From: Halorarum halophilum
GTDB taxonomy: Archaea > Halobacteriota > Halobacteria > Halobacteriales > Haloferacaceae
DNA length: 64,000 nucleotides
Direction of reading: 5' to 3'
Assembly (NCBI RefSeq): GCF_013401515.1
Contig: NZ_CP058529.1
Location: 3,410,001-3,474,000, forward strand
Position numbers and translations under genes: made by a program. How positions within the stretch are numbered: position 1 is the stretch's first letter; each line of letters opens with the position of its first letter. Shown here one piece after another: positions 57,481 through 59,657 of this stretch. The notes under the pieces are model-generated. The model saw only the letters and a list, made by a program, of their open reading frames with translations, was not told the origin of the DNA and did no database searches.

Positions 57481-57927
57481 CTACCGGAGATCCCTTCTCG
57501 CACAAGTTGCCGAGGACGGACAGAGGTCCGAAAACTCGGTCGTCCCTCGAACGCTCCCCGGGACGCACTCCCGATCGACCTCCTCGTACCCACGCTGTCG
57601 GAAGAACTCCGACGCGGTCGTGGTCAACAGGTACAGCGTCTCCACCCCGTTCGCTCGTGCGTGGTCCTCCAGCGCGTCACACAGCGTCCTCCCGTAGCCC
57701 TGCCCCCGGTTCGATTCCCTGACGACGACCGACCGAAGGAGTCCGTTCGGACCGTAGATCTCGACGCCTCCGACGCCGATCCACTCCGCGTCGGCGTACG
57801 CGAGGAGGAAGCACTCCGGCTTCGCCCGCACGTCCTCGGACGGGAGGTCGTTGGCTTCCAGCAGGGCCTCGACGCGGTCGAGGTTCGCCACGTCCGCCTT
57901 CCGGAGGGTTATCGATTCGTCGGTCAT
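57481..57927 (-). CDS. arsN2: arsenic resistance N-acetyltransferase ArsN2-like
   Basis: A 148-residue GNAT acetyltransferase. LLEANDLPSEDV, the coenzyme A loop RESNRGQGYGRTLCDALE and the C-terminal FFRQRGYEEVDRECVPGSVRGTTEFSDLCPSSATC fit the ArsN2-type group often found in ars clusters, which are thought to acetylate organoarsenicals. Here it lies in the same direction 84 nt after the ArsR-ArsM operon genes, supporting this assignment. Start ATG 57927 gives MTDESITLRKADVANLD. Whether it acts on arsenicals is inferred from similarity and context. Confidence 0.85.
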   Translation of the reverse strand: MTDESITLRKADVANLDRVEALLEANDLPSEDVRAKPECFLLAYADAEWIGVGGVEIYGPNGLLRSVVVRESNRGQGYGRTLCDALEDHARANGVETLYLLTTTASEFFRQRGYEEVDRECVPGSVRGTTEFSDLCPSSATCARRDLR

Positions 57928-58011
57928 GCTGTCCCGTCGACCTCCCGTATCGACCGGCGGTATCGGTGCCCATGCCGAACGCCGCGTCGATTCGCCGTCT
58001 CGAACGGACGG

Positions 58012-58317
58012 CTAGCTCGGGTCATCGGTGGGGTGCTGAGCGACGGTGATCCGGACCTCCCCTCCGAGGTCGAACGTGAGCGCCCGGCACTCGTGGACGC
58101 AGCGGACGAGTCGATGGGCCCGTCGCACGCCGACGAGTAGACCGACGACGGCGGCGAGCATCGCGGCGCCGGCCAATGGCTGGCTTCCGACCCAGAGCAG
58201 GATCGGAATCGCGGCTATCGTGGCGTAGCTCACGAGGATGCTCCGCCACGTGGGTCGTCTGTGCCAGGTGTCCCGGTCGAGGGTCAGTCTTCCCGGCGAA
58301 TCAGGCGGCCTGTACAT
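58012..58317 (-). CDS. two-TM membrane protein of the ars operon, unknown function
   Basis: A 101-residue protein: basic N-terminus (MYRPPDSPGRLTLDRDTWHRRPTWRSILVSY), two membrane helices (about 27-45 and 49-63) and a C-terminal soluble part with HRLVRCVHECRALTFDLGGEV, containing Cys-x3-Cys beside His residues. The Cys/His cluster could bind arsenic or another thiophilic ligand; this is inference. Its start is 3 nt after the stop of the 27-codon frame, and GGAGGTGG inside that frame's end may serve as its ribosome-binding site. I do not recognise the family. Confidence 0.72.
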   Translation of the reverse strand: MYRPPDSPGRLTLDRDTWHRRPTWRSILVSYATIAAIPILLWVGSQPLAGAAMLAAVVGLLVGVRRAHRLVRCVHECRALTFDLGGEVRITVAQHPTDDPS

Positions 58318-58320
58318 GGG

Positions 58321-58404
58321 TTAGTCGCCACCTCCGCCGGCGACCATCGTGGCTGAATCGTTCGATGCGGTCGGCAACAGCGTGTTCTCGTCGAATGGGG
58401 TCAT
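58321..58404 (-). CDS. 27-residue micropeptide of the ars operon
   Basis: Between arsM and the membrane protein gene, ATG at 58402-58404 opens a 27-codon frame beginning MTPFDENTLLP and ending TMVAGGGGD, stop 58321-58323. AGGAGGACC stands 5-6 nt before the ATG, an almost perfect Shine-Dalgarno, rare in a genome dominated by leaderless starts. The frame begins 17 nt after the arsM stop. No Cys is present. It may be a functional small peptide, a translational coupler for the following gene, or a remnant. No family recognised. Confidence 0.5.
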   Translation of the reverse strand: MTPFDENTLLPTASNDSATMVAGGGGD

Positions 58405-58421
58405 GCGCGTTGGTCCTCCTG

Positions 58422-59255
58422 TTACAGTTGCTGCCCCGTCGCTGGCTTCTCCCCCTCGATCGTCGCCGCGACGATGTAGTCGCTCAGATCGCGCTCGTCG
58501 TCCCACTCACTGACAAACGATTCGCTGTCCGCGTTCGGTTCGACGGACGCGTCCGCGAACCCGGCGTCGGTCAGCATCGATTCGAGCGCGGGAATCGACG
58601 ATGCACCGGCGATACAGGCGGCCACCGACGACGGGTCCGCCCGCACCTCGGCCGGTAGCTCGGCGGTCGACACGACGTCCGAGATGGCGAGGCGTCCGCC
58701 CGGCCGAAGGACGCGATACGCCTCGCGGAACACCCGTCGTTTGTCCGGGGAGAGGTTGATCACGCAGTTCGAGATGATGACGTCCACAGACTCGTCGGCG
58801 ACCGGAAGGTGTTCGATCTCGCCGAGGCGGAACTCGACGTTCGTCGCGTCGTTCGTTTCGACGTTCGCGCGGGCCTTCTCGACCATCTCCGGTGTCATAT
58901 CGACGCCGACGACACGACCGGCCGGTCCGACTTCCCGCGCCGCGAGGAAGCAGTCGAACCCGCCGCCGGACCCCAGATCGAGGACGGTGTCACCCTCCTC
59001 GAGGCTGGCGATCGCGGTCGGATTGCCGCAGCCGAGCCCCAAGTTCGCGCCCGCGCCGACGGCGTCGAGGTCGTCGTCCGAGTAGCCGAGTTCGCGCGAC
59101 TGCTCGGCGGCCGCCTCGTTCCCGGACCCGGAGTCGCCACAACAGGTCGACGACTCCGCAGCGATGCCACCGTACCGTTCGCGCACGGCGGTGCGCTGTT
59201 CCGTGGCGTCGGGAGGCGTCCCATCCGCGTCCGTAGTGGGGGTGTTCTCAGTCAT
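58422..59255 (-). CDS. arsM: arsenite S-adenosylmethionine methyltransferase ArsM
   Basis: A 277-residue methyltransferase that methylates As(III) to mono-, di- and trimethyl forms. The SAM motif VLDLGSGGGFDCF is at 91-103. Cysteines typical for ArsM are present: CC at 38-39, Cys76 in GLGCGNP, Cys164 in IISNCVINLSPDK and Cys214 in AACIAGASS. Residues 220-277 are the C-terminal ArsM domain. The start (59255) overlaps the end of the arsR gene by 8 nt. Second gene of the operon. Confidence 0.95.
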   Translation of the reverse strand: MTENTPTTDADGTPPDATEQRTAVRERYGGIAAESSTCCGDSGSGNEAAAEQSRELGYSDDDLDAVGAGANLGLGCGNPTAIASLEEGDTVLDLGSGGGFDCFLAAREVGPAGRVVGVDMTPEMVEKARANVETNDATNVEFRLGEIEHLPVADESVDVIISNCVINLSPDKRRVFREAYRVLRPGGRLAISDVVSTAELPAEVRADPSSVAACIAGASSIPALESMLTDAGFADASVEPNADSESFVSEWDDERDLSDYIVAATIEGEKPATGQQL

Positions 59256-59622
59256 CGTCCAGTGACCTGGTGTCGTCGACGACGCGGAGGAGCCGTTCCG
59301 CGCGCGGCGTCGCGGTGTAGTACCGCCAACGGCCCTCCTTTCGCCGTTCGACCAGCCCGGCGCTGAAGAGCCGCGAGAGCGCCTGACTGATCGCTCCCTG
59401 GCTCACACCGAGCGCCGGTTCCAGTTCGCAGACGCACACGCCCTCGTCGCTCGAAGCGATGAGCCGGAGCGCCTCGTACCGGGTATCGTTCCCGAGCGTG
59501 GCGAGCGTCCGGACGTCGGCGGCGACCTCCCGTTCGGTTAGCGAGTGGCTCCCGGAACAGCAGGCGGTCGCCTCCGGATCCTGTGCGTCGACCGGTTCGG
59601 CGCCCGAGTTCTGCCCTCTCAT
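59248..59622 (-). CDS. arsR: ArsR-type arsenic-responsive repressor
   Basis: A 124-residue winged helix protein. Metal-binding cysteines are CC at 21-22 near the N-terminus and Cys63/Cys65 in EGVCVCELEPALGVSQGAISQALSRL, the classic ELCVCDL-type site next to the recognition helix. As(III) binding would release the repressor from DNA. It is the first gene of the ars operon and starts ~16 nt downstream of a perfect inverted repeat (59638-59655), which also covers its TATA box; it is thus probably autoregulated. Leaderless start at ATG 59622. Confidence 0.94.
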   Translation of the reverse strand: MRGQNSGAEPVDAQDPEATACCSGSHSLTEREVAADVRTLATLGNDTRYEALRLIASSDEGVCVCELEPALGVSQGAISQALSRLFSAGLVERRKEGRWRYYTATPRAERLLRVVDDTRSLDDD

Positions 59623-59637
59623 TTTAGCACATCCTAA

Positions 59638-59657
59638 TATTAGCGTCCGCTAATATA
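59638..59657 (-). promoter_or_regulatory. ArsR operator and promoter
   Basis: TATTAGCG-TC-CGCTAATA (59638-59655) is a perfect 8-2-8 inverted repeat. On the minus strand TATATTAG (59651-59657 and adjacent) is the TATA box, ~32 nt upstream of the arsR ATG. Binding of a dimeric ArsR would block TBP/TFB access, giving repression in the absence of arsenic. Confidence 0.75.

Follow-up and report, generated by a model that had tools for sequence, protein, structure and literature searches.

A short unconserved reading frame between arsM and a membrane protein gene of a haloarchaeal arsenic operon as a possible translational bridge

The window analysed here is the whole 64,000-nucleotide stretch of the Halorarum halophilum genome (contig NZ_CP058529.1, positions 3,410,001 to 3,474,000 of the forward strand), and coordinates are counted from its first letter. 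Its minus strand carries an arsenic operon in the order arsR-arsM-(27 codons)-MP-arsN2, where MP is a membrane protein, with the following features:

59637..59656, no strand: perfect palindrome ATATTAGC-N4-GCTAATAT, with 8-bp arms and a 4-bp spacer, read from the sequence
59248..59622, minus strand: arsR, ArsR/SmtB-type regulator (NCBIfam NF033788, 2.1e-19, above cut-off)
58422..59255, minus strand: arsM, arsenite methyltransferase, 277 aa (NF008823, 4.7e-106, above cut-off)
58415..58420, minus strand: AGGAGG Shine-Dalgarno (SD) match, 10 nt upstream of the ATG at 58404
58321..58404, minus strand: 27-codon frame MTPFDENTLLPTASNDSATMVAGGGGD between arsM and MP, with its ATG at 58404 and a TAA ending at 58321; unique to this genome
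58328..58335, minus strand: GGAGGTGG, within the 3' end of the 27-codon frame, ending 10 nt upstream of the MP start
58012..58317, minus strand: MP, 101-aa membrane protein, no Pfam or NCBIfam family
57924..58025, minus strand: 33-codon frame MTRASRPFETANRRGVRHGHRYRRSIREVDGTA, with its ATG at -14 within the end of MP, ending on the arsN2 start (ATGA)
57481..57927, minus strand: arsN2, arsenic resistance N-acetyltransferase (NF040501, 8e-46, above cut-off)

ArsM scores 354 bits against NF008823 (cut-off 263), and the profile covers residues 17-272 of what is a full-length protein. The arsM and arsR genes overlap by 8 nt, and the palindrome, which lies 14 nt upstream of the arsR ATG, is probably an ArsR operator that overlaps the promoter. 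A profile search with MP found the arsR-(arsM)-MP-arsN2 operon in many Halobacteria of several families. In five loci (L098, L101, L161, L162 and L174) the operon has no arsM and reads arsR-MP-arsN2, with MP still beside arsR and arsN2.

The spacer between arsM and MP is 104 nt long. AGGAGG begins one base after the arsM TAA (58424-58422), the 27-codon frame starts 17 nt past this stop, and the frame runs into MP as TAA-CCC-ATG. The original prediction of a 27-codon frame with a well-placed SD between the two genes is correct in both sequence and coordinates (AGGAGG 10 nt before the ATG). The 3-nt gap at the MP end is within the roughly 10 nt over which termination-reinitiation is expected, and the 17-nt gap at the arsM end exceeds it. 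The 3' end of 16S rRNA, GGATCACCTCCT, is present at four genome sites, so AGGAGG is able to pair and the SD match is genuine. Measured from the 8-nt motif, SD spacing is 7 nt for the start of the 27-codon frame and 10 nt for MP, as compared with the 5 +/- 2 nt reported for SDs that serve re-initiation in Haloferax volcanii (PMC3986360). The further suggestion that GGAGGTGG supplies an SD for MP is less well supported, as it is poorly spaced for that role.

Gene starts, taken from a simple home-made caller applied to the window and to a sample of 20 stretches, rarely carry an SD of this strength. Six-mer SDs precede just 2-4% of starts located downstream of a gap or of a divergent gene, in line with most starts looking SD-less, while among overlapping or closely following starts 12.5% have a 6-mer and 35% a 5-mer SD, frequencies consistent with published haloarchaeal data. 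For a frame of 20 or more codons with AGGAGG ahead of its ATG, the expected number is 0.015 in the sense strand of the window's co-directional gaps and 0.10 when all gaps and both strands are taken. The combination of SD and 27-codon frame is uncommon but not decisive, because it was chosen post hoc. An RNA structure in the spacer was rejected, since the region is less structured than its shuffles (z = +1.6). Reading the 104-nt sequence revealed no AT-rich element of a separate MP promoter, and a sigma-70-type promoter scan of the spacer, whose model does not cover archaeal promoters, gave no match.

The 27-codon frame is not the gene for a conserved peptide. A search for homologues of MTPFDENTLLPTASNDSATMVAGGGGD among 170 genomes of the family returned only the query itself, the rest being noise (best E 0.22), and neither plasmid records nor the arsM-MP spacers of about 40 arsR-(arsM)-MP operons contain a related peptide; the functional small peptide of the original prediction is not supported by these searches. 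Nor is there codon-level conservation in relatives, the comparison that this prediction had suggested. In G103, the closest relative by sequence (ArsM 74% identical), parts of the spacer can still be aligned, but SD and ATG have both been lost and the frame is broken by indels whose lengths are not divisible by three. A frame broken in this way in a close relative is the outcome that the original prediction had named as refuting it, and it speaks against a conserved peptide.

While the peptide is not conserved, an open path from arsM towards MP recurs. The three species of the genus that we compared each have a different frame in this direction: the 27-codon frame in H. halophilum, an unrelated 41/42-codon frame in G103 that opens at the arsM stop codon and closes 3 nt short of MP, and in G102 a GTG-start frame that overlaps the arsM stop and stays open in-frame into MP. 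Tight paths were found in 8 of 21 non-redundant long arsM-MP spacers as compared with 3.0 in first-order Markov shuffles (P about 0.003), a tally from which near-duplicate loci were removed by hand and in which the 27-codon frame itself, starting at +17 and therefore outside the tight window, is not counted as a path; P values, here and below, are optimistic because the loci are related. In the pair L213/L214, adjacent indels of 2 nt and 1 nt cancel and a frame from -4 to -1 survives, and in L179/L215 a 32-codon frame closing 3 nt upstream of MP has stayed open despite substitutions.

Translational coupling in H. volcanii works only at overlaps or very short gaps, falling to roughly half at 13-14 nt and to almost none at 22-23 nt (PMC10666635), and in this organism no recruitment of ribosomes is known for SDs that lie outside coding frames. 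Coupling could therefore not cross the 104-nt spacer directly, and, going by the same gap data, coupling from arsM would already be weak at 17 nt. We propose, with a probability of about 45%, that the 27-codon frame is a bridge whose sequence is indifferent. Some of the ribosomes leaving arsM would restart at its ATG, aided by the SD just past the arsM stop, read through its 27 codons and stop 3 nt short of the MP ATG. Efficient termination-reinitiation at this 3-nt junction would then allow MP to be translated despite the long spacer, with the MTPFDENTLLPTASNDSATMVAGGGGD peptide as a by-product. The geometry of the frame, the absence of peptide conservation and the repeated appearance of unrelated bridging frames within the operon are observed; translation of the frame and a dependence of MP on it are inferred. 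The unstructured state of the region is a further point in favour of a bridge. The coupling device put forward in the original prediction accordingly keeps part of its ground: the stop 3 nt from the MP start and the unrelated frames that bridge the spacer in relatives above shuffle level speak for it, while the start at +17, the poor spacing of GGAGGTGG and the genome-wide frequency of bridging frames speak against it.

This frequency is also an argument for an accident, in which a GC-rich spacer happens to contain an open frame and an AGGAGG, neither the frame nor its peptide has a function, and MP is translated by independent internal initiation. Across 362 co-directional gaps (1.66 Mb sampled) we counted 27 bridging frames as compared with 26.3 in shuffles, and with loose windows 42 as compared with 40.4. 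A general bridge-frame mechanism across this genome is rejected by these counts. At shuffle level, the probability that a given gap contains a bridging frame is roughly 7-12%, which makes an accidental frame almost as likely as a bridge. The loss of SD, ATG and frame in the closest relative is consistent with an accident, as is the lack of any bridge in many relatives with arsM-MP spacers of 31-163 nt. The lengths of these spacers show no bias towards multiples of three, unlike those between MP and arsN2, and codon usage in the 27-codon frame is weaker than in real genes (its codon score of 4.7 exceeds 96% of intergenic frames but falls below 94% of real gene segments). An accident accounts less readily for an SD and frame expected 0.015 times in the sense gaps of the window, for arsM-MP paths above shuffle level among relatives, or for a stop exactly 3 nt before MP that is also found in G103, L179 and L215. 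Taken together, we consider an accident to have a probability not far short of even.

The recurring 3-nt distance could instead mean that the frame is a relic, namely what is left of the 3' end of an arsM that was formerly longer, stopped immediately upstream of MP and has since acquired an earlier stop. A stop 3 nt before the MP ATG is found in 9 of 41 loci, whether it ends a short frame or arsM itself, as in L163, L210 and L211. A relic is nevertheless improbable, as MTPFDENTLLPTASNDSATMVAGGGGD is unlike the C-termini of ArsM proteins, which are short and variable, and arsM is full length here. Least probable of all is a genuine lineage-specific micropeptide functioning in arsenic resistance, for although the SD is well placed, the codon score is in the top 4% of intergenic frames and the composition (zero Arg/Lys, four acidic residues) resembles that of haloarchaeal proteins, the peptide has no homologue in any search, is not conserved within the genus, and contains no cysteine for arsenic binding and no hydrophobic segment (highest 15-residue mean 0.47).

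The evidence for a bridge is stronger in the next spacer of the operon, between MP and arsN2, than in the arsM-MP spacer. A translation path, defined as a bridging frame or an in-frame extension of ArsN2, is present in 19 of 19 non-redundant loci with MP-arsN2 spacers longer than 6 nt, as compared with 12.8 expected when length is left free (P = 0.0002). Of the 10 different spacer lengths from 20 nt upwards, 9 are multiples of three (84, 81, 99, 111, 126, 57, 48, 30 and 27), and the sole exception, 59, has an in-frame ArsN2 extension instead. The ATG of the 33-codon frame is made by a conserved Asp codon of MP and a following codon that begins with G. The rare GAT encodes this Asp in 17 of the 23 non-redundant loci, whereas codon usage in the same ars genes would predict 3.1 (values transcribed by hand, with a frequency floor of 0.02, and the GAT frequency set to 0.10 in L158, which has just two other Asp codons). 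A neighbouring MP Asp shows normal usage, with GAT in 4 loci as compared with 2.4 expected, and three of these four make another start at the same place. A change from GAT to GAC would be synonymous in MP and would remove the bridge ATG and nothing else.

While the position and reading frame of the MTRASRPFETANRRGVRHGHRYRRSIREVDGTA frame are kept across haloarchaeal families, its amino acids are not conserved past the first residues (z 0.9). These results suggest that the start and the reading frame are under selection and the peptide is not, which is what a bridge predicts for this spacer. We also considered read-through of the MP stop into arsN2, since the two genes share a frame and frame 0 has some protein-level likeness (z 2.8), but rejected it because stops interrupt frame 0 in L209 and L212, where the shifted frame stays open. 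In L165 the MP stop comes five codons early, yet the bridge frame, whose ATG lies in what used to be the MP tail, still runs unbroken to the arsN2 start.

Extending the bridge reading to both spacers, haloarchaeal ars operons may keep ribosomes on the mRNA by means of short unconserved frames, with the start and frame between MP and arsN2 under selection and their peptide not, and with the 27-codon frame as a younger, lineage-specific example. We advance this wider proposal tentatively, at odds somewhat under even. Termination-reinitiation is known at overlapping gene pairs in H. volcanii and E. coli (PMC6728339, PMC10666635). The frames described here resemble these cases in the close spacing of stop and start (3 nt, and -14/-4 for the 33-codon frame), in the haloarchaeal host and in an SD that is helpful but not decisive; however, the known cases couple two real genes, whereas here the link would be a short unconserved frame that starts at +17. 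Short ORFs that deliver ribosomes are also known, including the mycobacterial MIRU units (reviewed in PMC12548453), and as in those ORFs the role would come from translating the frame and not from the peptide. MIRUs are intergenic insertions that preserve a -4 junction. In contrast to MIRUs, the 27-codon frame is archaeal, is not a dispersed repeat (it has a single protein-level match in its own genome), and frames at the same place differ between species. An archaeal operon that delivers ribosomes by means of unconserved frames would be a variant. De novo initiation in haloarchaea relies little, if at all, on SDs, and gaps of more than about 20 nt defeat coupling. Short frames that carry ribosomes would be one answer to how genes are translated after operon spacers of 50-130 nt. 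If this is true, many 'micropeptide' calls would be bridges without a functional product.

In its curated genes the operon is like other ars operons with ArsM and ArsN2, with arsR, arsM and arsN2 all recognised by curated models, and it differs from them in the extra conserved CxxxC membrane protein, which has no Pfam or NCBIfam family. MP has no match in Pfam, NCBIfam or solved structures, and appears to be a widespread, uncurated candidate arsenic-resistance membrane protein. Members of the family are ~96 aa long, compared with 101 aa here, and the predicted model (mean pLDDT 76) combines a two-helix hairpin, with helices at residues 24-45 and 47-77, and a beta hairpin. Two cysteines, C73 and C77, are invariant and form the CxxxC motif, and a C-terminal Cys is frequent; C73 and C77 could bind As(III). 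In the Natrinema record NZ_CP082248 MP is unannotated. In L179 the arsN2 downstream of MP is apparently only a short C-terminal remnant, and in Halorussus halophilus MP adjoins a permease gene.
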